This document shows, one piece after another, positions 3,001 through 19,917 of a stretch of DNA of 49,052 nucleotides. Position 1 is the first letter of the stretch. Each line of letters starts with the position of its first letter. Source of the stretch: Nitrospirota bacterium (GTDB taxonomy: Bacteria; JACPQY01). The stretch is from positions 1 through 49,052 of the forward strand of contig JACPQY010000036.1 in NCBI GenBank assembly GCA_016190245.1. Reading direction: 5' to 3'. Both the position numbers and the translations under genes were made by a program. The notes under the pieces were generated by a model, which was given only the letters and a program-made list of their open reading frames with translations, ran no database searches and was not told where the DNA came from.

Positions 3001-4830
3001 GCCCGTGGCGTCCTGCATCGTGACCGTGCCGGAAGTGTTGGCGCGCACGTTGAAATCCTCGCCGGCGGCCGGCTGGTGCGTGCCCCACGAGGTGGGGAAC
3101 GTATGGCCGGAGAGGGTGGCCGTTTGGGCCGTGATGTCGAGCAGGATGGATGGCGAGCCGGTGGACTCGAACGTGCCGGCCCACGCGATGTTGTCGAACT
3201 TCGTGACCGTGACGCCCGAGCCGATGCGGACGCCCAGGGAGTTCACGCTCCGGATGTCCCACTGCGAGACGTCGAGGGTGCCGCCCGTGAAGTTGACATT
3301 GAAGAAGTTGGTACCTTCCACGCCGGACGTCGTGAGGCGCTGGATGGTGGGCACGCCGGTCACTTGGATGGTCCCTGAAGACATCTGGAGCGTCCCGCCG
3401 GATCCGATCTTGAGGATGCCCCCTGAGCCGCTCATCTTCAGAGTTCCGCCGTTGACCGTGGCGGTGGCGCCGACGGTAAGCGTGTAGGTGGAGACCTCCA
3501 AGGTGGCCGCCGAGACCTCGACGTTGTTGTTGGCCGTGAGGTTCCCTCCCAGGGTCTTGGTTCCGCTGCCCGCGACCCAGAGGTTGTAGTACGTCACGTT
3601 CGGATCGATCGTCTGCGACCCCGCGCCGCCGGGCATGTCGTACTTGACCGTCCCCGCCGTGCTCGTCAGCGTGGCCGCCACGGCGGTGACGAGGCTCGAG
3701 AGGGCGAGCGTTCCGGCGCCCGTGAACGTGACCGTTCCCCCCGTGCCGTCCCAGGTCCCGTCGCCGTTGACCGTGCCGGTGGAGACGGTGATCGTTCCGT
3801 TCATGTCCGCCGCCGCCGTAAGCGTGAGCGTGCCGCTGCCGACCGCGATCGTGCCTCCGGAATCATGGTCGAGCTTGCTCGCGGTCAGGGTGAACCCGTT
3901 TAAGCTGAGACTGACGCTGTTGGGGCCAAGGTTGTTGTCGTCGATCAGGAGATTGGCGATGTCCCGGCTCTGGTCGAGGACGGGTTGATTGGTCGTCAGG
4001 CTCTGGTCGGTGAAGCGGACCGAATCGGTGACGAGCGGCACGCCGTTCGGGGCCCAGTTGTCCGCCGTGGCCCAGTTGGTGGACGTCCCACCGATCCACT
4101 TCTTGTGCGTGTAGATCTCGAAGTTGTCCACGTAGGTGATGTTGCTGTCGTCTCCCTGGATGTTGAAGAGGAGCCGATCGAAGTTGTCGAGCGTGGCGTA
4201 GTTCTCCATCCGGACCGGGATCAGCGTGCAGAGGGTGTTGTCCACGTAGAGCGTGTAGGTGTCGGCGGCGTTGTTGACCTCGATCCGGAAACGGTACCAC
4301 GTGTCAACCGCCCAGTTGACCCCCGAGGAGGTCCAGAGCGAGGTGGCGTCGTCATAGTACTCGATATTCTGGGCCACGTTGCCCCTGAATCGGATCTTGA
4401 CGCGGACCTCGGCCGGGCCCCACCCGCCGGAGAGGAGCTGGAAGGCCGTGGTTTCCTGTGCGTTCTCCTGGCGCATGAGGAATTCGACCGCCCCGGGACC
4501 GGACACGGATGAGCCTCGCGCGAGGAGCTGGGCGTTGCCCGTGGAGGCCCGGTCGCAGCGCATGTACTTGGTCCCGTCCGGCGTGGCGAGCGTGTTCTGG
4601 ACGTCGAAGACGTCGCAGGCGGTACCCCCGTTCGTCCAACCCAGCGGGGCGGACCCGACGGTATCGAGCTCGTAGTGGTCGGTGACGATGTCGGCCATGG
4701 CATCGGCGGCCCGGGAGGGGTTCGGAACGGAGATGATCAGCAGGCCGATGAAGGAAGTGCAAAGTGCGACGTGCGAAGTGCGCCCATGCGCCGCGCCTGC
4801 ACGGCCGATGGAAGGAACAATAGTGCCCAC
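1..4830 (-). CDS. Giant secreted repeat protein, 3' part beyond left edge
   Basis: Reading the minus strand from 4830 gives one uninterrupted frame to base 1, at least 1,610 codons. The C-terminus lies outside the window. The start is uncertain: GTG at 4830 (or 4842) gives a basic N-region, then the hydrophobic stretch FIGLLIISV and a cleavable SRA-A site, so a secreted protein is likely; ATG at 4698 would lose this signal. Seen after it: a jellyroll/concanavalin-like domain (about residues 45-235), then KKWIGG and an NWAPNGVP-type motif leading into long Thr/Gly/Asn-rich beta-strand repeats (beta-helix-like), with acidic loops GEDDDNDNGG that could bind calcium. A second jellyroll-KKWIGG block starts near 1060; the two KKWIGG points lie 3,591 nt (1,197 codons) apart. 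No catalytic motif was recognised. It is inferred to be a surface or matrix protein. A sigma-54-like promoter sits just upstream (4860-4875). Confidence 0.8.
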   Translation of the reverse strand, partial: MGTIVPSIGRAGAAHGRTSHVALCTSFIGLLIISVPNPSRAADAMADIVTDHYELDTVGSAPLGWTNGGTACDVFDVQNTLATPDGTKYMRCDRASTGNAQLLARGSSVSGPGAVEFLMRQENAQETTAFQLLSGGWGPAEVRVKIRFRGNVAQNIEYYDDATSLWTSSGVNWAVDTWYRFRIEVNNAADTYTLYVDNTLCTLIPVRMENYATLDNFDRLLFNIQGDDSNITYVDNFEIYTHKKWIGGTSTNWATADNWAPNGVPLVTDSVRFTDQSLTTNQPVLDQSRDIANLLIDDNNLGPNSVSLSLNGFTLTASKLDHDSGGTIAVGSGTLTLTAAADMNGTITVSTGTVNGDGTWDGTGGTVTFTGAGTLALSSLVTAVAATLTSTAGTVKYDMPGGAGSQTIDPNVTYYNLWVAGSGTKTLGGNLTANNNVEVSAATLEVSTYTLTVGATATVNGGTLKMSGSGGILKIGSGGTLQMSSGTIQVTGVPTIQRLTTSGVEGTNFFNVNFTGGTLDVSQWDIRSVNSLGVRIGSGVTVTKFDNIAWAGTFESTGSPSILLDITAQTATLSGHTFPTSWGTHQPAAGEDFNVRANTSGTVTMQDATGDWGGEDDDNDNGGTVTWTTTGIIWEGNSSVTWSTGSNWAGGTAPGAGDKAIIPSSPVGSFDDPTVTADTTIDLLNIATGRTITINNTITLTVDGDGSGTLVSGSGTLAGSGTLKVTPLANRTLNDASLTFPGLTVTAGDNLVNVTVTDGTTVTVTGVLELANGSLDVGSATLDLNQVDFRSSVSAAGEGLVSTDIGATFLVSGNWAIANGARFDTGPGCLVKFDGTAAQVIDIEGAADVDFNRLTVANSSATVTVYDNSGFRLLVLGQLIVGSGANFVVQDLLDPDAALTFNDGGSNNGTLRLEGGLADDLTELGSTFTPASGTVVYAGAASETVFTLINDVTPISYNNLTIDNTGATTATQQAAVLDINGNFLINDSDASFTASTSDLTLAGNFTNNGDFIASAGVNVTLDGGTQTVTISGAGDTDFRDLTVNGTLTDTLASNVTVTDTLTVTGGTLDTATYTLTAGNITINGGKFTMTGSGTTLKIANAGTLSMTSGTFNIADVATVPKITTSGTEGTNFYSVSLTGGVLDVAELDIRSVNTSGVVIGSGVTIRRFDQVEWSSTFDSSAAASVMLDVTAQTTSFGGHVFPASWGTHAADIAVRANTSGIVSMEDATGDWAGEDDDSDNGGTVNWIQLGAKANLFDDTFHGQVGAANPVRWYPNGSPTVAIVQNGGVAADEDEYCSITRSLANEGGYFTFNPVTSGKMVVEWLARKSNTTDATEFYVTDVGAGSNRAQVRFSGAGNIQYYNGTGWVTTTTYAADTWYRWRLELNEDADTFDVYLNNASQVTGVTMQNNGTAKMGAFEASVRSSDSNTTLVDDVEVYTHKKWIGGTSANWATAANWAPSGVPAVSDTVRFTDQTLTTNQPDLDSSRTVAGMLIDDDGFGPNNTDVDILTFALTDSGVLTLDSSGNLDVASGTVTAQGAADVDGTITLTTGTVNGDGSWDGTGGTITLTGAGSLILSNTVTAVAGTLTGTVGTVRYDAAVNQTVDTGLTYF
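500..4110 (-). repeat. Large internal repeat of the left giant gene (period 3,591 nt)
   Basis: The segment coding KKWIGG and the following NWAP.GVP motif occurs near 4093 and again near 502, nearly identical at the DNA level and exactly 1,197 codons apart. A shorter internal duplication also exists: the stretch coding RANTSG, DATGDW and the acidic GEDDD loop is found near 2980-3050 and again near 1115-1190. The gene therefore appears to grow by duplication of whole jellyroll plus beta-helix blocks. Confidence 0.7.
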
Positions 4831-4859
4831 GCTATACCACACCCTGCCGACTGGGATTG

Positions 4860-4875
4860 AGCAACTTTCGTGCCG
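4860..4875 (-). promoter_or_regulatory. Sigma-54 (-24/-12) promoter-like site
   Basis: The minus strand reads CGGCACGAAAGTTGCT. This matches the -24/-12 consensus TGGCACGNNNNTTGCW except for the first T. The predicted transcript would start near 4849, some 20 nt before the GTG at 4830. An 18-nt palindrome at 4985-5002 lies 110 bp further upstream, a typical enhancer distance. Confidence 0.65.
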
Positions 4876-4984
4876 TGTAGCGGTGGAGATCCTCGACAAC
4901 GCCTCGTAACTTATGACAAAAATAAACCTTCAACTACCCTCGACCTCAACAGGCTACAAGAAATGAGAAAAAGTGCGTCAAGTG

Positions 4985-5009: not shown

Positions 5010-5096
5010 GAAAAGGGGACATTCCTATTTTCCATGAGCTTCTTCCACCCACCCGCCACCCCCGGGCAGCGCGGAAAATAGGAATGTCCCCTTTTC
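5010..5096. repeat. 24-bp perfect inverted repeat (GGGGACATTCC family)
   Basis: The arms are 5010-5033 and 5073-5096, perfectly complementary, with a 39-nt spacer; the core is GGGGACATTCCTATTTT. The element ends 2 nt before the stop codon of the 4,704-aa gene. I recall similar GGGGACATTCC palindromes around Y1/REP-associated transposase genes of deltaproteobacteria; no transposase is present here, so this would be a non-autonomous copy. On the minus strand it could also act as a transcription terminator, ending in CTTTTCC. Confidence 0.75.
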
Positions 5097-5098
5097 GC

Positions 5099-8000
5099 TC
5101 ACGGCGTCGGATCCGTCTCCTTGTTCAGGAAATACAGTCCGCCGTTGCTTGTCCCGATCATGAACTTCTGCTGGTTCGAGTTGTAGCCGACCTGACCGAT
5201 GGCCACCCCGGAACCGAAGTCGTACGTCAGGAAAAGGTTCGCCGCGCTCTCGTCGATGTAATACAACTTGCCGTTGGCGTTCCCCACCACCATCACGCCG
5301 GAGAGCATCAAACCGCCGTTCGTGAACGCCGCCGTCGAGCCGCCGGGGCGGAACGGATAGCCCGACTGCGGCGTTCCTGAACTGCTCAACACGTAGAAGT
5401 GGCCGTCGGAATCTCCGTATTCCACCTTCCACGTGGAGTACGTCACATACGGCGCCGCCGTGATCTTGTACAGGCAGTTGTCCAGGTCCCCCACGGTGTG
5501 ATTCGTCGTGTCCCGATACGGATAACCGCTCAGGTTCGGCAAGCCGACCGTCCCGTTGTCCACTCCGTGCATCCGACCTCCATCGTCGCCGCCGTACACC
5601 TTGTTGCTCATGAGGGTCAAGGTCGAGTTCACGTGTTGCACGGGCGTCGTGTTGTCCGAGTCCACGCTCCCCGATCCGGTCGTGTCTACGCGATAGAGAT
5701 GCGCCCCGCCCCCGCATGCCCCCGCTGCCTTCGAGCCCGCATACAGGTACACCGTCCCTGAAATGTTCCTCCACGAAGGCGCCGTCTGCACCCTCGAAGC
5801 GGCCCCTACATCCTTGGCCGGCGCGTCGGGCGTCGTGTCCGTGTCCGCGATCTGGACCCCGAAGATCCTGGCCCCGTCCGCCGCGTTCTCGCCGCCGAAA
5901 TAGAGGTTGTTCAAGTCGTAGATCAGGGGCGAGGTGATCTCGTCCACGTTCGCGTGCGAGTAGGCCGCCTGCCACGGGCATCCCGCCTTGGGGAGCTGGA
6001 GAGCCGTTCCGGTATCCACGAGAAGGAAGATCTTGGCCACGCTCCCGGGATCGGCCTTCCCCGTGGGCACGTAGAGGACGTGCAGGCTGTCCGTCGAGTC
6101 GCCGTCGTTGTTCATGTCGCAGGGTCCGAAGACCGTCTCGCTCTTCGTGTCCCAGATCGGCGTGCCCAGGATGTTGCCGTTCGCCTCGGCGATGTCGTAG
6201 GTGTAAAGGGGATTGCCCGCCGTGTCCCTTACATAGATCCTGTCCACCGTGCCGGCCCCGCCCGTGTCCGTGAACGCGACGTAGACGGCGTACTGGGCGT
6301 AGGTGGTCCAGTCGAACGCGAGCGTCGGGAAGCCGGCGATGGTTCCGGACGTGTCCGACGAGCAGCTCCACATCCAGTTCAGGATGGCCGTGTTGACTTC
6401 GCTTTCGTAGGCCGCGCCCGCGCCCGGACCGCTCGTGCCCACGCCCCGGTTTTCGGCGCAGCCGACCAGATCGCTCCCGCCGTTCGTGTCCTGGAGACGG
6501 ATGTTGTACTGAGAGCCGCCGACGGTGTCGAAGTAGCCGCCGCGGACGGAGACGGTCCCGCTCGCCCGCGCGATGGAGAGGAATCGGGCGCCGACGCCGG
6601 AATCGATGTTGGTGAACCTGATCCCGGCCAAGTCCGTGATGGTGGCGGTAGAGGAAACGTCCAGGCCCTGGAGGTCGCCGTAGCTGAACTGGAGTTTGGT
6701 GATGTTGACCGTGCCGGTGAGTGTCACATCAATCGTGCCCGAGCCGCCGTTGCGCGTGAGCGTGGGGCCGGATCCGCTCCCCGAGGAGTTGAAGGTTCCG
6801 TTGATCGTGAGCGACTTTCCTCCCGCGAGCTGGAACGCGCCGGTGGAGGCCAGTTCGAGCGTCCCGCCGCTCTCCACGGTGGCGTTCTGGAGGGCCACGA
6901 GAACGGCGCTCGTGTTGTTGACGCGCAGGGTGCCGCCGCTGCGGACGGTGAGCGTATCGTTCACGGTGAGCGTGTTGCTCGCCAGGATGTCGAGGGCGAA
7001 TCCGCCGTCAATGATGAGCTTCTTGCAGGCGCCCGCCGCCGCGTCCATCGTGATGGCCGCGCCCTGGACCACGACGTTCTCGCTGCCCGTCGGCACGCCG
7101 GATGGCGTCCAGTTGCCGCCGGTATTCCAGGCACCCGAACTGATCTTCTTGAAGTTCGTGGCCGAGGGATAGACCGTGTACGTCAGACCGGAGGTGGATC
7201 CGTTGTTGGTGATGCGGAAGCGATACTCCTGCCCGTCCGTGGCGGTCGCATCGGCCTGGACGCGGAACCACAGCTCGGTCGTGGTCGGATTGCCGGCGGC
7301 CGTGTAGGCCGTGTCGGTGTCGCTGTTCCAGTACTCGCCGTTCACCCAAGGGTTGCCGCCGCTCGTGCCCCTCTCGCCCGAGGTGACGCTCGCGCCGTTC
7401 GCCTTCGCGTAGGTCCCCGTCGGCGCCATCTTCCAATCGGTCGAGGTGTTGGTGATCGAGGTCCACGGACCGGGGCTGCCGTTGGGATCTTTCTGGTACT
7501 GGAGAACCCAGGTGTAGTTCGAGTTCGGATCGCTGTGGTCAATCCGCACGGCGACGACGTACTTGTTCCCCGGGGTGAAGTAGAACTCCCCGTTGTCGCC
7601 CTTCCACGTGAGCGAGGCGGCATCGTCCGCCACGTCGAAGGCGCCCTGGGCATTCCCGGCGCTCTGCACGGCCAGCTCGATCGTCACCGTGTACGTGTTG
7701 AGGACCTGCGGATTGGCCCCCGAGGCGTCCACCTCCACCGCGCGCAGGTAGTAGTTGCCGATCGCAGTGGGCTTGATGGTGAAGTCCTCCTCGTAGAGCG
7801 TGTCCGCGCTCTTGTTCTGCGCGGCCGGCTGGTCGTTGTCCTCGTGGTACACCCCGCCCGTCGGGCTGCCGGAAAGCGCAAGCGCGGTGACGGGCGAATC
7901 GCCGTCAAGGTGGCCGTCATTGTAGTCCGTGTCGTTCCACCCCCGGATGGTTGCGCTCGCGCCGGTGATCAGCGTCGGCGCGGGGAAGAGCGACGACGTG

Positions 8001-11000
8001 TCGAACTGGAGAGCGAGGTTGTGGCCGGTCCAACTCAGGTGCTTCGACTTGATGCCCACCCGCACGCGAACGAGGTCGTTGGGCGACACAATAGCCTGCG
8101 TGTTCTCCGGTTCGAGGGCGATCTCCGTCTTGTCCGCCCACCGGTAGGCCACCTGCTCCTTCACGCGCTGGGCGGCCTCCGGGTAGACGGTGTAGACGAA
8201 GGACCCGTTGGCGCCGTTGTCCGTGATCCGGAACCGGTAGCGATTGAGGGCGGACGACCCCTGCGGCTGGACGGAGTACCACAGCTCCGTGAACTCGCCC
8301 GCTCCAAGCGTGAACGAGGAGACAATGCCGTCCTCGCAGTAGACGCCGTTGACGCCCGTGCCTGTCCCGGTGCCCGTGACGAAGCTCCCCGTCGAGACCG
8401 AGGCGTTGTCCGCCCCGTACGCTCCATCCACCGCCCGCCAATCGGTCGAGGTGGTCGTGACGGCCGTCCAGGGTCCCGGCGATCCCGTCGGGTCCTTCTG
8501 GTACTCGAGGCGCCAACTGAAGGTGGACGGGCTCGCGCCGGTATTCTCCATCCTGACGGCCGCGATGTACGTCGTGCTCGTCGTGAACTCCTTGATCGTG
8601 TTCGAGGGACCGCTCCAGTCGGGCGAGGCCACGTTCTGCGCCCACTCGTAGGCGGCCAAGCTGACGTTCGGGACGGTGGCGGAGAAGGAAATGGCCTGGG
8701 TGTACGTGTCGAGCAGGCCGACGTAGGCTCCCGTGTTGTCCACCTCGACCACACGCAGGTAGTACGTGCCGGAGGCCCCGATCTCCACGGTGAAGTCCTC
8801 TTCGTAGAGGATGTCCAGGCTCTTGTTCTGCGAACTCACCACGTTCGATTCGTGGTAGCGGCCGGCGGTGGGCGTGCCGGAGAGGAGGGTCCCCGAGAGC
8901 GCGTCGTTGTTGAGATGGTCGGCGTCGTCCCAATACTTGATCGGCGTGGAGGAGGTCGTGATCAGGTAGGTGGAGGGCGCGCCGTTCGCATTGGCGAAGC
9001 TCGAGACCGTGTCGTATTGCAGCGCAAGATAGTGCCCGTTCCAGGGCGAGTTGTTCGACTTGATCCCCGTGCGGAGATGGAGCTGCTGGTTGACGGCGGC
9101 GGTGTAGGCGTTGTTCTCGAGCGCAAGTTGGTTCTCGGCCCCGTCCGCCCAGCGGAAGGAGACCTGCTCGTGGGTGGTGTCCTTCGCCTGCGCCAGGATC
9201 GTGTACGAGATTCCGGCGGTGGAGCCGGAGTTCGTGATCCTGAAGCTGTACGCCTTGCCGGAAGCCGCCGACTGAGGCTGGATCTCGTAGCGCAACTCCG
9301 TCTGATTGCCCGCGCCCAAGGAATACGTGCCCTGCGCTCCCGTCTCGCTGTAGCGGCCGTTCGCGGCCGTCCCCGCGCCGGCGTTGGTGACGAAGTTACC
9401 GGTGGTGATGGCAGTTCCGTCCTGGACGGTGTTGACCACGGCCTTCCAGTCCACGGATCCGGTCGTGAGGTCCGTCCACGGTCCCGGCGTTCCCGTCGTC
9501 CGCTGATATTGGAGACGCCAGTCGTAGTTGTTGGGGACGGCGCCCGTATTCGAGACTCGAACGGCCAGCGTGTAGGTCGTGCCCGGCGTGATCTCGATGA
9601 CCGAGTCCGCAGTCCCGAACCCCGTGCCGGCGGTCAACTCGCCTGCCCCCCAGTTGAACGAGTCCTGGCTGGTCGCCGGATTGTTTCCGGTGAGCGAGAT
9701 CGTCTGAAGGTAATTGTTCAAGACTTTGAGGAAAACCCCCGAAGAATCGGTCTCCACCACCCTCAGATAGTACGTGCCCGTGGAGGTGACCTTGACGGTG
9801 AAATCCTCTTCGTAGAGCGTGTCCGCGTTGGCCGTTTGGCCCGGCGGGACACCGTCCTCGTGATATTTCCCGGCCGTAGGACTGGAGGACAGGATCGAGC
9901 CCGTCACTGCGTCGCCTTTCAGATGGTCCGTGTCGTTCCAATACTGGATGTTGCTCGATGAGGTGGTGACGAGCGTGGGGGCGGCGAAGTTGATGTCCGT
10001 GTCGTACTGGAGGCTGAGGTAGTGCGTGCTCCACGTGAGGTGCTTGCCCTTGAGGCCGGTTCGGAGGTGGACGGTATCGTTCACGTTGGCGTTGAACGAG
10101 GAGTTCTCCGTGGCCAGCGCCGCCTCGGCGGCATCGGCCCAACGGAAAGAGACCTGCTGGGTGACGAGTTGGGCGGCCTCGGGGGACTGGTTGTACGCGA
10201 AGGGACCGGTCGCTCCGTTGTCCGTGAGGCGGAACTTGTAGCGGTTGAGGGCCGCGCTGCTCAACGGCTGAATGGAGAACCAGAGCTCCGAGTACTCGTT
10301 CGAGTTGAGCGTGAAGGACGACACGATCCCGTCCTCGGAATACATGCCGCTCACGCCCGTCCCCGTTTCCGAGCCGGTCGAGAAGCTCCCGGTCGCCACG
10401 TTGGTGTTGTCAAGCCCATAGACGCCGTCCACGGCGCGCCAGTCGTTCGAGCTGGTCGTGATGTTGGTCCACGCGCCCGGGCTCCCCGTCGGATCCTTTT
10501 GATATTGGAGCCGCCAGTTGAGCGTCGCCGGCGAACCGCCCGTGTTCTTGGCCCGCACGGCCAGGATGTACGTGGTCGAGGTGGCGAACGAGAGCATCGT
10601 ATTGGCCGTCTGCCAGGCCGGGCTCGCCTGGTTGGGGGACCAGTTGTAGCCGTTCTGCCCCACCGAGGGGACCGTGGCCGTCACGGCGATCACCGGGCTC
10701 GAATACGTGTCGAGCACCGCCGGCGATCCGCCGTTGTAATCCACCGCGCGCAGATAGTAGGTGCCCGTGGCCGTGATCGTGACGGTGAAATCCTCCTCGT
10801 AGAGCGTGTCGAGCGTCTTGCTCTGGGTCACGGATTGATTCTCGACCTCGTGGTAAAGCCCCGCCGTCGGACTGCCCGTCAGGATCGTGGCCGCCACGTT
10901 CGTGCCTTCCACCCTGTCGGAGTCGTCCCACATCTGGACATTGGCGGTGGCCGTGGTCACGTTGACGGGCGACGGGAAGGCGCTGTTCGTGTCGTACTGG

Positions 11001-14000
11001 AGGGAGAGCTTGTGGTTGTTCCAGGCGCCGTTGTTCGAGCGGATGCCGGCCCGCAGGTGGAGGAGCTGGCCGACGGCCGAGTTGTAGGAGGTGTTCTGCG
11101 CCTCGAGGGCGATCTCGCTTTCGTCCGCCCACCGCCAGGAGACCTGCTCGTGCGTCGTGTCCTGCGCGATGGCATAGACGGAGTACGTGAAGGCCGAGGT
11201 CGAACCCGAATTAGTGAGGCGGAAGCGGTAGGCCTTGCCGGCGGCGGCGCTCTGCGGCTGGAGCTCGTAGCGGAACTCCGTCTGGCTCGTCGCCGAGAGC
11301 GAGTATCCGCCGTGCGCGCCGGTCTCGGAGTAGCGGCCGTTGATGAGCGAGCCCGAGCCCGCGTTGGTGACGAAGTTGGCCGTGGCGATGGCGTTGCCGT
11401 CCTGCCCGGTTCCGCCGGCGACGGCCTTCCAGTCGGCCGAGGTCGTCGTCACGTCGGTCCAGGAACCCGGCGTCCCGTTCGTCTTCTGGTACTGGAGGCG
11501 CCAGTCGAAACCGGCGGGGACGGCCGAGCCGTTCGACATGCGCACGGCTAGCGTGTAGGTCGAGCTCGGGGCGTATTCGAGCGAAGCGTCGGCCGTGCCG
11601 AAGCCGCTGCTGCCCGTGAGCTCGCCCGCACCCCAGTTGAAGGAATTCTGGGTCGCCATCGGGTTGTTGCCCGTGATCGCGATCGCCTGCGTGTAGATCT
11701 TGAGGACCTTGAGGAAACTACCGAAGGCGTCCACCTCCACGACGCGAAGGTAGTACGTGCCGGTGGTGAGGACGGTCACCGTGAAGTCCTCCTCGTACAG
11801 CGTGTCCGCGGTCTTGTTCTGAGAGGGCGGGACGCTGTCCTCGTGGTACACGCCGGCCGTGGGCGAACCGCCGAGCATGAGCGGCGTCACCCCCGCCCCT
11901 TCCGTGTGGTCGCCGTCGTCCCACATCCGGATGTTCGAGGAACTCGTGGTGACCAGCGTCGGCGCGGTGAAGTTGATGTCGGTGTCGTACTGCAGGGCGA
12001 GGTAGTGGGTGGTCCACGGACCATTGTTGGGGCGCAGGCCCGCGCGCAGGTGCAGGGCGTCATTCACCGTCGCATCAACCGACGCGTTTTCGGCTCCCAA
12101 GGCGGCCTCGCCGGGGTCGAGCCAGCGGAAGGACACCTGCTCGGTGGCCGTCTGCCGCCCGATCGGATAGACCGTGAAGGTGAAGGAGCCGGCGTTCCCG
12201 CTGTTGGTGAGCCTGAACTGGTACTTGTTGTTCGTGGCGGAGACCGTGGGTTGGAGGGCGTACCAGTGCTCCGTGTAGCGCATCGCGGCGAGCACCTGGA
12301 GGAAGCTCCCCGTCTCCGAGTACGTGCCGTCCACAGCCGTCACGCCGGGACCCGGCGGGCTGCCGCTGTTGGTCTTGAAGCCCGAGGTGGCGGTGATGGC
12401 CTGGCCGTCCACGCTGTACGTCGCGTCCACGGCCTTCCAGTCGGCAGATGACGTGGTCACGTTCGTCCAGGAGCCCGGCGTTCCGTTGATCTTCTGATAC
12501 TGGAGCTGCCAGGTGACGGAGGCTGAGGTGCCGCCGACCGTCGTCGAGGGCTCGGGACTGATGTATCTTCGAGCCTTGATGTAGTCGAACTCGGCGCAGG
12601 CGTTGTCCGCGCCAATCCCGATGATGGGACTCCAGGCCGTGCTGTAGGTCGTGTCGAGCCGCAGGTTGTTGTCAATGTACAGCTTGTGGTTGGTCCCCTG
12701 GATGATAAGGCCCATCTTGTACCACGTGTCCGGGTTGATGACCTGCGGGTTCTGCGAGATCGTGGTGCTCGTCCAGGCGGAAATATCCCATTCCTCCAGG
12801 CGCCAGTAGTCCGCGCCGACGCGCGCGCCGTCCACGCTCAGATCTCCCGTGGCCCCGTCACGGAAATTGAGCAGGAAGGTGTTCTCCCAGTTCCCGCACG
12901 CGCTGCTGAGCGGGCGGGTCAGCATCTCGACGTACCGGTCCGCCGGAACGCTCACGGCGGTCTGCCGGAGGTAGAAATGCTGGTTGCCGCTGTCGTCCAC
13001 GCGGGCATCGTCCGTCCCATTGATCGTCCACGTTCCGGCCGCCCCACCGGTGTCCCATTGGCTCAACGTGCCGGAGAAGTCATCATAGAAAGCATAGACG
13101 GCCGAACGGTTCGCGGGGGGGGTGGTCGAGCCCTGATCGTTGTCGTAATAGAGGTAGTATTCCTTGTCGTCCAGGCCGGCGGCGATCGCGACCTTGGTCT
13201 TGAACCAGATCTCCGTGCTCGTGCTGTTCCAGCTCGTTTCGGTGACGCGGTCCAGTTCGGTGTTGGTGGCGCCGTTGTAGTACACGATGCGGACGTCGTT
13301 GCCCCCGGGCGTCGAGCGGCCCTGGCCGACGATGTCCTGGTGGTTGATCGTGATCTTGACGGAATAATCGGCAGGCAGAGTGGACGCCGCGGTGTTGACG
13401 ACCTGGATCTGCTCGCGGTAGTCCCAGCCGCTGTTCCACCACGGGGCGTTGCCCAGACCGGAGCGGTTCTCCGCCTGGACCGCGAGGAGATAGATGTTGC
13501 CGGGCGTCATCTCCAACTGCGTGTCCGTGGTCTGGAACACCGGGCTCGCGGCGTCCGGCGCCCAGGCGTAGTAGTTCTGGCGCAGCGTGGGGTTCACGAC
13601 GAGGACCGTGATGAGTTGGCTGTACGTGTCGAGCGTGCCCACGAGCGCGCCGGCGGCGTCGAGGCGGACGACGCGCAGGTAGTACGTGCCGACGGTGTCC
13701 ACCGTGAGAGCGAAATCCGCTTCGTAGAGCACGTCCGCGCTCATGGCGGGTTCCGTCGACACCAACACGTTGGTCTCGTGGAAACGGCCCATCGTGGGGG
13801 TCCCGGAGAGGAGCGAGCCCGTGACCGTACTCTCGTCCGCGTGGTCGCCGTCGTCCCACATGTACACGGTGCTCGAGCTGGGCGTGGCCACGACGGCGGA
13901 GGCGAAGGTGCTGACCGTGTCGTACTGGACCCCAAGTCGCTGGCCGCTCCAGGTTCCGTTGTTCGACCGGACGCCCACGCGGAGGTGGAAGAGTTGGTTC

Positions 14001-17000
14001 TTGGCCACCGTGGCGGCCGTGTTCTCGTTGCTCAGGCCCGCGTCCGACTCGTCCGCCAGCCGGTACGAGACCTCTTCGCGCGTCGTCTGCTGCGCCTCGC
14101 CGAGCTGCGTGTAGGCGAAGCCGCCGGTGCTCTGGTTGTTCGTCAGCCGGAACCTGTAGTTGTTGCCCGCCGCGTCCGATTGCGGCTGGATGGAATACCA
14201 AAGCTCCGTGTAGTTGCCGGCAGCAAGATTAAAGGAAAGGGTCGGCGATCGGACAATCCCCACCTCGCTGTATCGCCCGGCGGCGGACGTCCCGGTGCCA
14301 GGGCCCGTCACGAAACTCCCTGTGGCGATCGAAGTGTCATTCGCGGCGTAGACCCCGTCCACGGCGATCCACTCCGGCGAGCTCGTGTTGACGGCCACCC
14401 AAGGCCCCGGCACGCCGTTGATCCGCTGGAACTCGATTTGCCATCGGTAGCTGGCGGCCGAGGTCCCCACGTTGGCCGGCCGGGTCGCGAGGATGTAGTT
14501 CGTCCCCGGCGTGAACTCGAGCGGTGTGTTCGGAGATCCGAAACTCGGCGACGCCACGTTCACCGCCCACGCGTAGCCCTCCTGTTGGACGGACGTGGAA
14601 GAAACCGTGATCGTGATCGCGTTGGCATAGTAGTCGAGGGCACCGAGAAGCGCCCCGAAGCCGTCCACCTTGACGAGACGCGCGTAGTACGTACCCGCCG
14701 CCTGTCCCACCACGGCCACGTCCTCTTCATAAATCAGGTCCTGGTTCTTGGACTGACTCGGCGGGATGTCGTCCTCGTGGTAGATCCCGTCCGCGTTGCT
14801 GCCCGTGAGGAGCTTGGTGCCACTGACGGGATCGCCTTCCAGGTGGTCCGCGTCGTCCCAGTATCGGATCTCCGCCGTGGCGGCGGTCATGATGACAGGG
14901 TTGAAACCGTCGCCCGAGGTGAACGCCGAGTCGGTATCGTACTGGAGGCCGAGGCGGTGGCTGCCGAACGGCTTGTAGCGGCTGCGGACGCTCCCCCGCA
15001 GGTGGAGCTGCGTACCGATGACCGTGGAGTAGCTCTTGTTCTCGTCCTGCGTGGAGGCCTCCGCATCGTCCGCCCACCTGAAGGCGACCTGCTCCACGTT
15101 CGCGCCGTAGCTCACATCAATCTGGGCGTAGTCGAAGATCATGTTGATCTCGTCGCCGGTGGCATTGATCTGCCCCTCCACCCTCACGCGCATCTTGAGG
15201 CGGCCGTTGGAGTCCAGGTAATCGTTCGTGAAGCCACTGCCTTTGAATCGCCGCAGAGGTCGCTCGGGGTTCGTGTCGCCCGACTCATCCCAGACGCCCG
15301 CCTCGGCCGTGTTCTGCCAGCCGCTCGGCGTGTTGGTAAGGAAGGGATCGCCGATCTCCTCCCACGTTGCCGTGGTGTAGTTGTAGAGATCCACGGCGGA
15401 ATCGCTGATCTTCGTCCAGTCCGCGGTGTCCGTCTGAGGAGCCGAGCCGTTGTTGGCGCCGGTCAGGTACATCTCGGCCCGGAACGTGAGGGTGTTGATA
15501 TCGTTCCCCGCGATGCCCGACACCTGGTCGTCCAGATCGAACGTGAACTCGACCGACGTCATCTGGGGGTCGAACAGAATCCCGACGCTGGCCATCTGCC
15601 CGCCCGCGTAGAGACCGTCGTCCGCCTCGAGGTTGTCCACCCAGAGGTCCGGGTCGCCACCGTCCGTGTTGTTGAAGTTCTGCCACGGCTGAAGGGAGGG
15701 ATCGGAATTGACGAGGCTCGTGATGGGAGGGAGGCTTGTGACCGAGCCGGTGGGCACGGCGATCGTCCGATTGCCCGCGGGGTTCTGGTCCGAGGCCGGA
15801 TAGGTGGACCCCTCCACGGTGATGTCGTTCGTCACAATCTTGGCGTCCACGGTGTTCCCGATGACGGCGGTGGATGACAGGGTGTAGACGATGAAGGCAT
15901 AGAAGGTTCCAGGAGCGGAGCCGTTCCCCATGTCCTGCCCACCGTTGAAGGTGACCTTGCCCGCGGCAAAGGGCTGGTTGGTCGCCCCAAAGGGGGTCGT
16001 GGTCGAAAAAGTCGAACTCGTGCCGGTGTAGTAGGCCGACACGCCCGAAACGTCGGTGTCGGCGATGTTGGTGCTCGTCACTTTGATTTGTTGGATCGTG
16101 AGCGGGGCGCCCGTTCCGGTCACGGCGAAGTCCAGTCTTAGAATCTGGGCGTTGGAGGCGCTCGGCTTGACCGTCGAAGTGTCAATGTTGGTCACGGTGA
16201 TCGTGCTGAGACTCTGGGGCGCGCTGATCGTGCGGGCGCCGCTCGGGCTGATCGCGACGGTGGAGGGGTAGTTGACGGCGCTGATCGTGACGTTCCCCGC
16301 CGTGATCTGGGCGTCGAGCGTATTGCCCGGCGTGGCCCCGCCCGCCACGTTGTACACGATGAAGACGTGGACGAGCTGGTTGTTGGGGAGCGAGCGGCTC
16401 CCCGTGAACGTGACCGAGCCTGCCGTGAAGGCCTGACCGGTCGTCCCGAAGGGATTGCTGGTCGAGAACGTGGTGCTGGTGCCCGTGTAGTACGCCGATA
16501 CGCCGCTCACATCGGAATCACTGGTGTTGAGGCTGGAGACGACGATCTGCGTGAGCGTCTGGCTCGTTCCGCCCTCGATGTCCAACCGGAGGATTTCGAC
16601 GTCGCTGGAACCCGCCGACACCGGGTTCGTGGAGGTGTGGATGCCGGTGACCTTGAAGTCGCCCGAGGCGCTCTCGCCGCTCAGCGCGAAGGATGGCTCG
16701 GGGTAGAAATACCGGCGGACGACGATATTGTCGAACCACCCCCACTGCTGGTTCGCCTGGAAGGCGGGCTGGCCGGTGGAGGCATAGCCGCCGTCCGCAT
16801 AGGCGAGGTTCTGGAGCGTGGCCGCAGCATCCGTGTCGTTGTTGACCCAGAAGCGATGGACGCTGTTCGCGCCGTTCTGGTAGATACCGTAGCGGATCGT
16901 GTCGTTGCCCGTTTGGCCGCCGGAGGAGGTGGCCGTGGAGGACTGGACGTTGATCCCGTCGCCGCTGCCGCCGTTGCCGGTCCCCACCGTGCAGCAGGGG

Positions 17001-19213
17001 AAGTAGCTGTTCGAGCCGGGGGCGGCCACGAGCGTGCTTCGGCTCGAGCCGCTCCCGCGGGTGATCCCGGGCGAGGTGAACGACCCGTTCGAGAAATGGG
17101 TGTAGTAGTTCGTCGCGGTTGCAGACCACCTCGTGATGAGCGTCGCCGTCCCGTTCGTGGGGTAGGCGCGGAAGGTGTTCCAGTCCGCCTGGACGAGAAG
17201 GTTCTGCTCGTTGATGGTCGAGATCCGCAGGCCGCCGTTGAAGTTGTCCCCCGTGTCGAAGCTGGCCGCCTGACGCGTGGAGTCGTAACGGGCCTGCGCC
17301 GAGTTCGTGCCGTCAATGTCCACGTGCTTGCCGTTTTCGTAGCCCGAGGTCGCGACGGTCGCGTTGCGGTTGTAGGCCTCGACGGACCGGATCTGCGGCG
17401 TGCCGGCCGTCCGGACGATCCGGATGTACCGCGCCACCGACAGCCCGCTGGAGGCCAGGTCCAGGTTGACGCTGCTGCCGGTGCTCGATCCGATGAGCGT
17501 CCACGGGCCCAACTCCCAGGCGCTGCCGTACACATCGAAGTTGTTCCCGCCGCCGCTGCTCGTCCTGACTCTCAGGTCGTTGCTGCTGCCGTTGGTGATC
17601 TCCTCGCCCTCCCCCATGTCCAGGATGAGCTGACCTCCCGCGGAGATCGAGGCCGACTGGTTGGCCGTTTCGGTGCCGACCGCCTTGTAGTCCTCCGTCA
17701 CGGCGGTGGAAGACACCACCGAGTTGGCCCAATCATCGCCCTGCGACACCGCGGTGTTCGACGAGAAGTCGTCGTACCAGAGGTAAACGTCCGAGGGGTT
17801 GCTGGATGGCGCGAGGGCCGCGGTGTTGCCGTAGTACACATAGTAGTTGTTGTCCGATCCGCTCGCCGCGATGGAGGCCTGCGTGGGGAAATAGACCCTC
17901 GTATTGCCGGAGTTCCAGGCGGTCGAGTTGGTCCGAGGCACCTCGACGTAGGTGGAACCGTTCCAGTACACGATGCGGACGTCGTCGCCGTCCGCCTGGG
18001 CCTTGCCGCCCGTCACCCACGTCGCGTGGGTGAGATCCGCGCGCACCGAGTAGCCTGCGGGGAGGGCCTGGCTCCCCACATTGTTGGTGATCGTGATTCT
18101 CTGGCGGTAGCCGTACGCGCCCGACTTCCATGCTTCTTCAAGCTGAACCACGGGCTCGGGGCTGATGTAGTAGCGGAACTTCACGTCGTCGAACTGGGCG
18201 TGCGAATCCTCGTTGCCCAGACCCATCACCGTGTTCCAGGTCGTCTCCGCGCCGGTCATCGTGTACGTGAACTTCTGCGCCCCGTCCACCCAGAACGTGA
18301 TCACGTTGCCGTTGAGGCGGACCTTGCAGGAGTACCAGATCCCCCGGTCAATGGTCTGCGAGTAGCTGGTGTAGGTGGTCTCCGCCGTGGAGGACGTCCA
18401 CTGCTCCACGCGCCATTCGTCCGCCCCCTCGCGAGCGCCGACGACGATGCGCTGCTGCGTGTCGGCCGGGTTCTCGCGCAGGGTCATGAAGAAGTTCCAG
18501 ATCGAGCCGTCGAACGGCGAGTAGCCCTTCCATTCCATCTCGAACGCGGAGGGCGTGGGAAGGTAGCTCTGCTGGAGGAAGTAGTGGGTGTTGGAGCTGT
18601 CCGCGCTGTCGAGGACGCCCGAGCTGATGGACCAACTTCCCGTCCCCGGCGTGCCCCACTTCGAGAGCGTGCCGGAGAAATCGTCGTAGATCAGGTACAC
18701 GTTGTTCTGATCGGCCGGGGGGCCGCCCGCGGCGGGGTTGTTATAGTAGAGGTAGTAGTCGCGCGACTCGCGGCCCGATTTGAGCCGGTTCTGGGCGCGG
18801 AAGCGAATCTCCGTGGCCGACGTGTTCCAGGAGGTGGCCGCGAGGCGATCCAGTTCCACGTTCACCTTGCGCGTGCGACTGTAGTACACGATCCGGATGT
18901 CGTTGCCGTTCGAGAGCGACTGGCCGGCGGAGACGAGCGAGGCGTGGTCGAGGTTGAACAGGAGCGTGTAGCCCTGGGGCATGTCCAGGTTCGAGTCGTT
19001 GCGGATGTGGATGATCTGGCGGTTGCTGAAGTTCCCGTCCCACCACGCGACCGTCTCAGCTTCAGCGCGACCGAAGAGGACGTACAGGCCATAGCCTACG
19101 CCCAGGAGAGCGAAGAGGCCCACCTGCACGTACCGCGGGGCATGGCGGAATGCCTCCGGAACGGACCGGAGGCGGCGTGCGATCGACCGCAGGGCCGCTA
19201 GCACGCGCTCCAT
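5099..19213 (-). CDS. 4,704-aa modular surface protein (DUF2341, tandem repeats, beta-propeller-like end)
   Basis: ATG at 19213 follows a strong CCGGAGG Shine-Dalgarno. Order seen: basic N-terminus, hydrophobic segment 29-47 and a possible AEA|E cleavage near 52; DUF2341 plus concanavalin-like domain (about 57-355); a second DUF2341 (about 365) followed by a discoidin-like part and another lectin-like part; two copies of a domain resembling the N-terminal domain of BNR neuraminidases (about 852-1150); seven alternating A-B modules (about 1372-4025); beta-helix-like strands beginning with a GNWTPSGVP motif (about 4030-4270); and a C-terminal region of short PQQ/FG-GAP-like strands to residue 4704. 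A third DUF2341-lectin block interrupts module B2. No enzyme active site or C-terminal anchor was seen. It is inferred to be an extracellular adhesin or matrix protein. The next gene on this strand (4830) has its own promoter. Confidence 0.9.
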   Translation of the reverse strand: MERVLAALRSIARRLRSVPEAFRHAPRYVQVGLFALLGVGYGLYVLFGRAEAETVAWWDGNFSNRQIIHIRNDSNLDMPQGYTLLFNLDHASLVSAGQSLSNGNDIRIVYYSRTRKVNVELDRLAATSWNTSATEIRFRAQNRLKSGRESRDYYLYYNNPAAGGPPADQNNVYLIYDDFSGTLSKWGTPGTGSWSISSGVLDSADSSNTHYFLQQSYLPTPSAFEMEWKGYSPFDGSIWNFFMTLRENPADTQQRIVVGAREGADEWRVEQWTSSTAETTYTSYSQTIDRGIWYSCKVRLNGNVITFWVDGAQKFTYTMTGAETTWNTVMGLGNEDSHAQFDDVKFRYYISPEPVVQLEEAWKSGAYGYRQRITITNNVGSQALPAGYSVRADLTHATWVTGGKAQADGDDVRIVYWNGSTYVEVPRTNSTAWNSGNTRVYFPTQASIAASGSDNNYYVYYGNTAALAPSSNPSDVYLWYDDFSSNTAVSQGDDWANSVVSSTAVTEDYKAVGTETANQSASISAGGQLILDMGEGEEITNGSSNDLRVRTSSGGGNNFDVYGSAWELGPWTLIGSSTGSSVNLDLASSGLSVARYIRIVRTAGTPQIRSVEAYNRNATVATSGYENGKHVDIDGTNSAQARYDSTRQAASFDTGDNFNGGLRISTINEQNLLVQADWNTFRAYPTNGTATLITRWSATATNYYTHFSNGSFTSPGITRGSGSSRSTLVAAPGSNSYFPCCTVGTGNGGSGDGINVQSSTATSSGGQTGNDTIRYGIYQNGANSVHRFWVNNDTDAAATLQNLAYADGGYASTGQPAFQANQQWGWFDNIVVRRYFYPEPSFALSGESASGDFKVTGIHTSTNPVSAGSSDVEILRLDIEGGTSQTLTQIVVSSLNTSDSDVSGVSAYYTGTSTTFSTSNPFGTTGQAFTAGSVTFTGSRSLPNNQLVHVFIVYNVAGGATPGNTLDAQITAGNVTISAVNYPSTVAISPSGARTISAPQSLSTITVTNIDTSTVKPSASNAQILRLDFAVTGTGAPLTIQQIKVTSTNIADTDVSGVSAYYTGTSSTFSTTTPFGATNQPFAAGKVTFNGGQDMGNGSAPGTFYAFIVYTLSSTAVIGNTVDAKIVTNDITVEGSTYPASDQNPAGNRTIAVPTGSVTSLPPITSLVNSDPSLQPWQNFNNTDGGDPDLWVDNLEADDGLYAGGQMASVGILFDPQMTSVEFTFDLDDQVSGIAGNDINTLTFRAEMYLTGANNGSAPQTDTADWTKISDSAVDLYNYTTATWEEIGDPFLTNTPSGWQNTAEAGVWDESGDTNPERPLRRFKGSGFTNDYLDSNGRLKMRVRVEGQINATGDEINMIFDYAQIDVSYGANVEQVAFRWADDAEASTQDENKSYSTVIGTQLHLRGSVRSRYKPFGSHRLGLQYDTDSAFTSGDGFNPVIMTAATAEIRYWDDADHLEGDPVSGTKLLTGSNADGIYHEDDIPPSQSKNQDLIYEEDVAVVGQAAGTYYARLVKVDGFGALLGALDYYANAITITVSSTSVQQEGYAWAVNVASPSFGSPNTPLEFTPGTNYILATRPANVGTSAASYRWQIEFQRINGVPGPWVAVNTSSPEWIAVDGVYAANDTSIATGSFVTGPGTGTSAAGRYSEVGIVRSPTLSFNLAAGNYTELWYSIQPQSDAAGNNYRFRLTNNQSTGGFAYTQLGEAQQTTREEVSYRLADESDAGLSNENTAATVAKNQLFHLRVGVRSNNGTWSGQRLGVQYDTVSTFASAVVATPSSSTVYMWDDGDHADESTVTGSLLSGTPTMGRFHETNVLVSTEPAMSADVLYEADFALTVDTVGTYYLRVVRLDAAGALVGTLDTYSQLITVLVVNPTLRQNYYAWAPDAASPVFQTTDTQLEMTPGNIYLLAVQAENRSGLGNAPWWNSGWDYREQIQVVNTAASTLPADYSVKITINHQDIVGQGRSTPGGNDVRIVYYNGATNTELDRVTETSWNSTSTEIWFKTKVAIAAGLDDKEYYLYYDNDQGSTTPPANRSAVYAFYDDFSGTLSQWDTGGAAGTWTINGTDDARVDDSGNQHFYLRQTAVSVPADRYVEMLTRPLSSACGNWENTFLLNFRDGATGDLSVDGARVGADYWRLEEWDISAWTSTTISQNPQVINPDTWYKMGLIIQGTNHKLYIDNNLRLDTTYSTAWSPIIGIGADNACAEFDYIKARRYISPEPSTTVGGTSASVTWQLQYQKINGTPGSWTNVTTSSADWKAVDATYSVDGQAITATSGFKTNSGSPPGPGVTAVDGTYSETGSFLQVLAAMRYTEHWYALQPTVSATNNKYQFRLTNSGNAGSFTFTVYPIGRQTATEQVSFRWLDPGEAALGAENASVDATVNDALHLRAGLRPNNGPWTTHYLALQYDTDINFTAPTLVTTSSSNIRMWDDGDHTEGAGVTPLMLGGSPTAGVYHEDSVPPSQNKTADTLYEEDFTVTVLTTGTYYLRVVEVDAFGSFLKVLKIYTQAIAITGNNPMATQNSFNWGAGELTGSSGFGTADASLEYAPSSTYTLAVRMSNGSAVPAGFDWRLQYQKTNGTPGSWTDVTTTSADWKAVAGGTGQDGNAIATANFVTNAGSGSLINGRYSETGAHGGYSLSATSQTEFRYELQPQSAAAGKAYRFRLTNSGSTSAFTYSVYAIAQDTTHEQVSWRWADESEIALEAQNTSYNSAVGQLLHLRAGIRSNNGAWNNHKLSLQYDTNSAFPSPVNVTTATANVQMWDDSDRVEGTNVAATILTGSPTAGLYHEVENQSVTQSKTLDTLYEEDFTVTITATGTYYLRAVDYNGGSPAVLDTYSSPVIAVTATVPSVGQNGYNWSPNQASPAWQTANTMLSFATSTTYILAVRAKNTGGSPATLNWRLQYQKDPTGSPGAWTNITTSSNDWRAVDGVYGLDNTNVATGSFSTGSETGTGVSGMYSEDGIVSSFTLNSNEYSELWFSIQPLSSAALNRYKFRLTDNGATGPFAYNQSPEAAQLVTQQVSFRWADAAEAALATENSSFNANVNDTVHLRTGLKGKHLTWSTHYLSLQYDTDINFAAPTLVTTSSSNIQYWNDTDHLKGDAVTGSILSSSPTAGKYHEDGVPPGQTANADTLYEEDFTVKVTSTGTYYLRVVETDSSGVFLKVLNNYLQTISLTGNNPATSQDSFNWGAGELTAGTGFGTADSVIEITPGTTYTLAVRVSNTGAVPNNYDWRLQYQRTTGTPGPWTDLTTGSVDWKAVVNTVQDGTAITTGNFVTNAGAGTAANGRYSETGAQGTYSLGAGNQTELRYEIQPQSAASGKAYSFRITNSGSTAGISYTILAQAKDTTHEQVSFRWADGAENQLALENNAYTAAVNQQLHLRTGIKSNNSPWNGHYLALQYDTVSSFANANGAPSTYLITTSSTPIKYWDDADHLNNDALSGTLLSGTPTAGRYHESNVVSSQNKSLDILYEEDFTVEIGASGTYYLRVVEVDNTGAYVGLLDTYTQAISFSATVPNVSLAAYEWAQNVASPDWSGPSNTIKEFTTSTTYIAAVRMENTGASPSTFSWRLEYQKDPTGSPGPWTAVTTTSTDWRAVDGAYGADNASVSTGSFVTGTGTGTGVNGVYCEDGIVSSFTLGAGEFTELWYSVQPQGSSALNRYRFRITDNGANGSFVYTVYPEAAQRVKEQVAYRWADKTEIALEPENTQAIVSPNDLVRVRVGIKSKHLSWTGHNLALQFDTSSLFPAPTLITGASATIRGWNDTDYNDGHLDGDSPVTALALSGSPTGGVYHEDNDQPAAQNKSADTLYEEDFTIKPTAIGNYYLRAVEVDASGANPQVLNTYTVTIELAVQSAGNAQGAFDVADDAASLTWKGDNGEFYFTPGNKYVVAVRIDHSDPNSNYTWVLQYQKDPNGSPGPWTSITNTSTDWKMAPTGTYAKANGASVTSGERGTSGGNPWVNGEYWNSDTDTAYTAAGNPTTTELWFRVQADATATDGQEYRFRITNNGSTSGLTYTVYPSATNFKKISSGAWNTGGNWTPSGVPTGSENVVVQGAAITMDAAAGACKKLIIDGGFALDILASNTLTVNDTLTVRSGGTLRVNNTSAVLVALQNATVESGGTLELASTGAFQLAGGKSLTINGTFNSSGSGSGPTLTRNGGSGTIDVTLTGTVNITKLQFSYGDLQGLDVSSTATITDLAGIRFTNIDSGVGARFLSIARASGTVSVRGGYFDTVGGSQYNIRLQDTNGGSDLVGCAENRGVGTSGPGAGAAYESEVNTAILNWMWSCSSDTSGTIAGFPTLAFDWTTYAQYAVYVAFTDTGGAGTVDRIYVRDTAGNPLYTYDIAEANGNILGTPIWDTKSETVFGPCDMNNDGDSTDSLHVLYVPTGKADPGSVAKIFLLVDTGTALQLPKAGCPWQAAYSHANVDEITSPLIYDLNNLYFGGENAADGARIFGVQIADTDTTPDAPAKDVGAASRVQTAPSWRNISGTVYLYAGSKAAGACGGGAHLYRVDTTGSGSVDSDNTTPVQHVNSTLTLMSNKVYGGDDGGRMHGVDNGTVGLPNLSGYPYRDTTNHTVGDLDNCLYKITAAPYVTYSTWKVEYGDSDGHFYVLSSSGTPQSGYPFRPGGSTAAFTNGGLMLSGVMVVGNANGKLYYIDESAANLFLTYDFGSGVAIGQVGYNSNQQKFMIGTSNGGLYFLNKETDPTP
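7140..15100 (-). repeat. Seven-fold A-B module array in the giant gene, about 1 kb per unit
   Basis: Module A begins with EQVSFRWAD-like residues and carries LHLR, LQYDT, YHE, LYEEDF and GTYYLRVVE. Module B carries Y.W....ASP, RLQYQK..GTPG.W, YSE.G and RFRLTNSG. A modules start near 15100, 14080, 12145, 11150, 10165, 9170 and 8160. Units 3 and 5 share SFNWGAGELT.. and GTPG.W; units 4 and 6 share DPTGSPG.W, DWRAVDG and EDGIVSSFTL. This implies duplication of two-unit blocks. The wider gap between units 2 and 3 is the inserted DUF2341-lectin block (about 13455-12540). Confidence 0.85.
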
Positions 19214-19527: not shown

Positions 19528-19598
19528 TTCCCATATCCCAAACCTCGCAGTCCCCACTTCCCTTAATCCGTTAATCCGTCGCCAAGCGTCCGTGTCCC

Positions 19599-19747
19599 GT
19601 AGGGACGCATTCCTATGCGTCCGAGAAGACGGACCGATCGGAATCGGTCCCTACAGCGTTGAATGCAGGCCATCCTGGCCTGCTTCCTTTCGCAGTACCA
19701 GGCCGTCCTGGGCCAGGTACGAAGAAGGCACACCCATCGGGTGCGCC
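19599..19747. repeat. Cluster of five short hairpins
   Basis: Hairpin 1 is GGACGCAT-TCCT-ATGCGTCC (19603-19622). Hairpin 2 is GGACCGAT-CGGA-ATCGGTCC (19631-19650). Both are enclosed by an outer GTAGGGAC/GTCCCTAC pair (19599-19606 and 19647-19654). Hairpin 3 is GCAGGCCA-TCC-TGGCCTGC (19665-19683). Hairpin 4 pairs GTACCAGGCC with GGCCAGGTAC with one mismatch (19695-19720). Hairpin 5 is GGCACACCC-ATC-GGGTGCGCC with one mismatch (19727-19747). They look like dispersed extragenic palindromes. Confidence 0.7.
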
Positions 19748-19823
19748 CCCTTAGCTCGGGAATCCGGCATTGCCGACGGATTAAGGACTTCAGTACATCC
19801 TCGCAAAAGTGTTCGATCGTCTT

Positions 19824-19889
19824 GAGATCGCCCTCGCGATGACGTAGAGGGGCGTCATTGCGATCCGCCGCAGGCGGAGAAGCAATCTC
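19824..19889. repeat. Dispersed palindromic element, copy 1 (CATTGCGA...AGCAATCTC)
   Basis: Right half CGTCATTGCGATCC...AGCAATCTC, with a shortened left half GAGATCGCCCTCGCGATGACG. Related copies are at 25902-25972 and 37683-37763. It carries an inner CCGCCGCAGGCGG palindrome shared with copy 3 but not copy 2. It ends 28 nt from the stop codon of the BY-kinase gene. Confidence 0.75.
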
Positions 19890-19917
19890 GAGATGGTCAC
19901 GGACTTCTAAATGGCGC

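Follow-up and report, generated by a model that had tools for sequence, protein, structure and literature searches.

A giant bacterial protein with a seven-unit array of an unnamed, probably Ig-like domain family

Introduction

Most giant proteins of uncultured bacteria lack annotation; the locus described here raises the question of what one of them is built from, how its repeated array grew and what role it might have. The window, that is, the whole stretch of DNA that was analysed (49,052 nucleotides), is an entire contig of a 3.29-Mb, 85%-complete genome assembly. A preliminary description, made from the sequence alone, reported a protein of 4,704 residues (aa) with seven units of alternating A and B modules that could not be named as a domain pair, grown by duplication of two-unit blocks of about 2 kb. 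For comparison we used an orthologue, an open frame of approximately 8,760 codons (8.76 kaa) on JAJFLO010000569.1, from a metagenome-assembled genome (MAG) labelled Verrucomicrobia bacterium OFTM167 (loci L024, L033 and L034).

Results

The giant gene and its surroundings

The gene is one uninterrupted ORF of 4,704 codons at 5099–19213, as previously described, and lies on the minus strand, which had been left unstated. It starts with an ATG at 19213, a GGAGG ribosome-binding site lying a few bases 5′ of it, and stops at 5099–5101. Long plus-strand ORFs over the gene (e.g. 12686–15877) were taken as GC-rich shadow frames because the frame opposite them has protein-level homologues. No tRNA was found in the window, and an Rfam scan of it gave no match.

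The next gene downstream (1–4899, minus strand) encodes another giant of at least 1,600 aa, running off the window, with a repeated lectin-like domain, the sequence ‘KWIGGTSxNWATAxNWAPxGVP’ and beta-helix-like stretches; comparable beta-helix-like material is fused to the N-terminus of the orthologue. Directly 3′ of the stop codon of the giant gene, at 5010–5096, is a near-perfect 23-base inverted repeat (GAAAAGGGGACATTCCTATTTTC / GAAAATAGGAATGTCCCCTTTTC) that is REP-like or terminator-like, and several short palindromic REP-like stretches were seen by eye in the intergenic region 5′ of the gene (19580–19900). Beyond them lies a gene for a Wzc-like polysaccharide tyrosine autokinase (19918–22191, minus strand), a 601-base piece of which has diverged copies (65–74% DNA identity) at three other places in the genome.

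Modules flanking the array

The first 52 residues (19058–19213; all intervals given below for the giant gene are likewise on the minus strand) comprise a basic N-region and a hydrophobic stretch (VQVGLFALLGVGYGLYVLFG), by inspection a putative Sec signal or signal-anchor. Thr, Ser, Gly and Asn are abundant in the protein, which has 13 Cys in 4,704 residues, a composition found in many exported proteins. The hydrophobic segment and this composition are the only indications of export.

Two modules follow. N1 (aa 54–356; 18146–19054) combines DUF2341 with a lectin/laminin-G-like part and is 52% identical to N1 of the orthologue; N2 (aa 357–855; 16649–18145) is another DUF2341-like module, in which a discoidin-like part was recognized by eye, and is 50.6% identical to its counterpart. 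The DUF2341 assignment, already made in the preliminary description, is confirmed by a match to PF10102 in three stretches (E 1.4e-12, 48.3 bits versus a cut-off of 23.4). The lectin-like part is suggested by sub-threshold matches to PF06439 (E 2e-4, aa 182–346) and laminin G (E 0.01). Next come two BNR_assoc_N-like domains (aa 856–1180; 15674–16648). Here the earlier assignment holds through the orthologue, whose corresponding stretch matches PF14873 (BNR_assoc_N; E 1e-6, 29.0 bits versus a gathering threshold of 25), and not in the window protein itself, which had no match to this family at threshold in the Pfam scan. A linker domain that belongs to no family (aa 1181–1374; 15092–15673), also present in the orthologue, leads into the array.

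Beyond the array, the ‘WNTGGNWTPSGVP’ region (aa 4021–4300; 6314–7153) is G8-like or beta-helix-like and gives a weak match to PF10162 (G8), and the C-terminal part (aa 4300–4704; 5102–6316) resembles a PQQ-like beta-propeller by eye, with a weak propeller match; both matches are below cut-off. The beta-helix and propeller parts proposed earlier are thus suggested by sequence character and these sub-threshold matches, and the modular mixture described for the chain is real.

Seven A-B units and their pairing

Searched with HMMs built from one A and one B seed, aa 1375–4020 resolved into exactly seven units in strict alternation. The A domains start at aa 1375, 1714, 2359, 2690, 3020, 3350 and 3687, and the B domains at about aa 1541, 1874 (interrupted, resuming at 2229), 2517, 2849, 3178, 3515 and 3851. 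Every copy matches its seed with an i-Evalue of 1e-23 or better, B2 doing so in two pieces (2.6e-5 and 5.8e-32), which excludes chance and bears out the count of seven. Unit 1 spans 14075–15091; A2 (13595–14074) and the interrupted B2 (12140–13594) form unit 2; units 3 and 4 lie at 11147–12139 and 10160–11146, units 5 and 6 at 9167–10156 and 8156–9166, and unit 7, the most diverged, at 7154–8155. Tandem Repeats Finder reported no DNA-level array, which says little, since a unit exceeds its maximum period of 500.

An all-against-all protein alignment, proposed in the preliminary description, gave 67% identity for units 3/5, 59% for units 4/6 and 35–49% for the remaining pairs. By module, A3/A5 (66.5%), B3/B5 (68.0%) and B4/B6 (65.2%) are close, and A4/A6 (52.9%) is no closer than A4/A3 (54.5%). 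Trees agree in placing unit 5 nearest unit 3, and B6 nearest B4 within the window protein; in the A tree, A6 groups with A2 and A4 falls elsewhere (with A7 at the protein level). Sliding protein identity between blocks 3-4 and 5-6 was 58–75% over A3-B3, 41–62% over A4 and 68–75% over most of B4. The block repeats at approximately 661 codons (2.0 kb), in line with the 2 kb estimated before. The pairing claimed for these units therefore stands for 3/5 in both modules and for 4/6 in B, and falls for 4/6 in A.

A and B as copies of one domain

The two modules had been taken for different domains. Profile–profile comparison argues otherwise: hhalign of the seven A against six B sequences gave E 1.5e-4, and with the orthologues added E 4.7e-6 (score 41.3 over 135 columns), against controls of at most 17.1 for 50 column shuffles, 18.6 and 23.5 for reversed profiles and 17.4 for DUF2341 modules. 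Single domains elsewhere match both profiles. One domain in a relative from genome G001 is matched by A and B at the same place, and the single domains of G620 and G629, matched by the A profile and a broad B profile, carry an A-like RWYDND.AE.PTALA.ENT together with a B-like LQYRKG..GTWE signature. On this profile evidence, A and B are diverged copies of one domain, of predicted Ig-like fold. Neither has a Pfam or NCBIfam match above the curated cut-off, whether in the entire protein or as isolated modules, nor sequence similarity to PDB chains, in keeping with the earlier statement that the pair could not be named.

Structure prediction of one A-B unit, also proposed earlier, was carried out with AlphaFold2 for A3-B3 from a 17-sequence alignment. 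The model is almost all beta (pLDDT 88.8, pTM 0.67), and a beta-sandwich character for A-B is well supported by this prediction. Its matches in the PDB, none of them prominent, are mostly tandem Ig-like or beta-sandwich pairs from diverse families and include transglutaminase C-terminal barrels, integrin legs, AgI/II, PrgB and RbmA. The best Foldseek E-value was 1e-5 and the best VIA Z-score 8.6 at 7.2 Å, with most near 6.5, values that mostly reflect generic beta-sandwich pairs. A viral fold library gave generic low-TM matches only.

A module nested in B2

The two pieces in which B2 matches the B profile (model positions 2–47, then 28–172) flank aa 1917–2228 (12530–13465), a complete DUF2341 (best Pfam stretch aa 1971–2055) plus lectin-like domain. 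This nested module was missed by the preliminary description. B2 of the orthologue carries a DUF2341-lectin insert at the same site. The two inserts share 47% identity, against 31–35% with the N1 modules, so the insertion is older than the split between the two proteins. A predicted model of B2 with its insert, built from two sequences, had a pLDDT of 31 and was not used.

A second case may come from G043, in which a region of beta-propeller-like repeats appears inserted in a related domain beginning YRWRNDNGSE (L028:1915–4935, minus strand). Homology to the B profile starts there at model position 48, directly after the propeller-like stretch of approximately 690 aa, and the YRWRNDNGSE segment before it resembles the absent first part of the domain. 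As this segment is not significant by itself, use of the same loop by the propeller and the B2 insert is likely rather than proven.

The orthologue and the distribution of the family

The orthologue shares with the window protein the order N1 (52%), N2 (51%), BNR-associated pair, linker and seven A-B units. Same-numbered units are 44–52% identical in six of the seven cases and 33% for unit 1. It differs in an N-terminal beta-helix-like extension of more than 2,000 aa and in a C-terminus with a TSP3-like, beta-helix and lectin-like appearance where the window protein has the G8/propeller region; a propeller of the window type was not seen there. Its A6 is interrupted at aa 4267–4454 of the translated L024 ORF by two similar repeats (STYKWTASGSG...GGGDPG and GSFQWTQSPAN...GGGDPG).

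A profile of 13 sequences found the domain in four of a sample of 386 genomes across the domain of life, the window's own included, and in four of 387 genomes of the orthologue's phylum, again including the orthologue's own and one weak match (E 2.4e-4). The relatives in G620 and G629 (1.8–2.0 kaa), G001 (2.3 kaa), G258 and G043 have one copy each in large, exported-looking proteins that lack the tandem array. The end of the G001 relative (2,311 aa; L023:5396–12331, plus strand) resembles a gingipain-type (C25) peptidase by eye. In the phylum of G258 the A profile found nothing, and a search of the phylum of G043 gave only G043 itself. None of 52 pattern matches on viral contigs was a relative, and plasmid and phage records gave no match. 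A scan of all genome contigs with one strict peptide pattern matched only the contig of the Verrucomicrobia-labelled MAG. The family thus appears rare and scattered, an assessment that is provisional given the single strict pattern.

Age of the block duplication

Did the array grow recently within this gene, as the preliminary description read it? The identities of units 3/5 and 4/6 speak for such an expansion, and so does the history of units 3 and 5, which in the window protein resemble one another more than they do their positional counterparts in the orthologue; positional pairing of these units was rejected by the AU test (p 0.027 for whole units, 0.010 for B). Against it, the synonymous sites of the paired units are fully randomised. 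Identity at fourfold-degenerate sites is 0.43 for 3/5 and 0.45 for 4/6, versus 0.45 expected in each case, and Nei–Gojobori dS for the four paired modules (0.99–1.29) is not below that of non-paired modules. The 3-4/5-6 block duplication is therefore ancient, and these units cannot have undergone gene conversion recently. The seven-unit layout is moreover common to the distant orthologue, whose units 3 and 5, and 4 and 6, group with those of the window in the same pair of clades, and A4 and A6 are unpaired. A recent two-unit expansion is thus very improbable.

In a joint tree of window (w) and orthologue (v) units, the latter on long branches, units 2 (support 100/100) and 7 (99.5/99) pair with their positional counterparts, and the repeated block gives the clades {w3, w5, v3, v5} (90.5/85) and {w4, w6, v4, v6} (88.6/83). 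Positional pairing of units 4 and 6 was not rejected (AU p 0.275). Sister relations 3/4 and 5/6 were rejected for whole units and for B, and not for A alone, a module too short to decide the history of the units. With the rejected pairing of units 3 and 5, these clades suggest that the ancestral protein most likely already had the doubled block before the window and orthologue lineages split, and imply that units 3 and 5 were later homogenised or duplicated again in the window lineage.

Discussion

We favour an exported giant surface adhesin, with a fourteen-domain stalk presenting glycan-binding modules, at a probability of about 0.6; its export, stalk shape, glycan binding and adhesion are what we infer. 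The extended stalk would consist of seven A-B pairs, in all fourteen Ig-like beta-sandwich domains in tandem that derive from a single ancestral domain. Its N-terminal end would hold the DUF2341/lectin-like and BNR-associated modules, a loop of the stalk domain B2 would bear an extra DUF2341-lectin module, and the G8/propeller-like region would form the C-terminal end. We found no site for ligand binding, no anchor and no secretion route in the giant protein. The array probably arose by duplication of one domain to give A-B, amplification of the pair and doubling of the 3-4/5-6 block before the known orthologues diverged, units 3 and 5 becoming more alike later in the window lineage.

The same parts can be read differently. 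The lectin, BNR and propeller parts might serve glycan breakdown in an extracellular giant that degrades or scavenges polysaccharides, with the array as a mere spacer. BNR_assoc_N, matched in the orthologue, is the N-terminal domain of BNR-repeat neuraminidases, and the stretch at aa 182–346 resembles PF06439, a 3-keto-disaccharide hydrolase family; that match is below cut-off, though, and the family shares the lectin-like jelly-roll fold. Across 4,704 aa no catalytic Pfam or NCBIfam domain lies above cut-off, and we regard a degradative role as unlikely, even if some giants of PVC bacteria have been interpreted as weapons on the cell surface that degrade glycans (PMC12057145). Alternatively, the function could reside in the array itself, which would assemble into a coat outside the cell or a biofilm matrix in the manner of the tandem FnIII protein RbmA, with the lectins as cross-links. 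Foldseek does match the A-B unit to RbmA, but as one of many generic beta-sandwich pairs; the Wzc-like polysaccharide kinase gene adjoins the giant gene, but such genes are common; and giant coats have been proposed for Omnitrophota (PMC10066038). A matrix role seems to us similarly improbable.

The adhesin reading leaves room for a wider and more tentative idea, namely that this undescribed Ig-like family acts as a carrier scaffold: one loop between two core strands may repeatedly take up whole foreign domains, such as the DUF2341-lectin module in B2 and the propeller in G043, so that binding modules project laterally from a stalk that keeps its length of fourteen domains across distant lineages. 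A loop tolerating the insertion of complete domains is of interest in itself, as is a giant-protein layout kept over a long divergence. The protein also illustrates clearly how a surface giant of this kind may have grown, from one domain to a pair and on to seven pairs with a doubled block. The domain family, unnamed and defined here from seven or eight sampled genomes so far, would as a profile annotate stretches in several giant proteins.

Several known systems invite comparison. LapA/BapA-type giant adhesins of type I secretion systems have RTX repeats near their C-terminus, whereas the window protein has no Pfam match to such hemolysin-type calcium-binding repeats. No type I secretion genes were found among the scanned ORFs of the window, whose contig ends 5 kb downstream; next to the gene of the orthologue lie convergent HlyD-like and TolC-like (OEP) genes (L034:13839–17479, minus strand), a possible secretion route. 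The C-terminal propeller of PilY1-type pilus tip adhesins likewise has no Pfam match in the window protein. RbmA, the AgI/II C-terminus and PrgB share tandem beta-sandwich domains with A-B, a generic structural match in the absence of sequence similarity. DUF2341 (PF10102) is shared with putative archaeal adhesins for which a location at the tips of type IV pili has been proposed, a point in favour of the adhesin reading, though the Ig-like array and the remainder of the chain are absent from their description (PMC4858521). The giants of Omnitrophota and other PVC bacteria and Giant1–5 of A. kunkeei are likewise very large, modular, exported and probably adhesive, but their described modules are of other kinds (PMC10066038, PMC12863079). 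The protein is probably located at the cell surface and would be an unusual member, built on an unnamed domain family, of the familiar class of giant adhesins.
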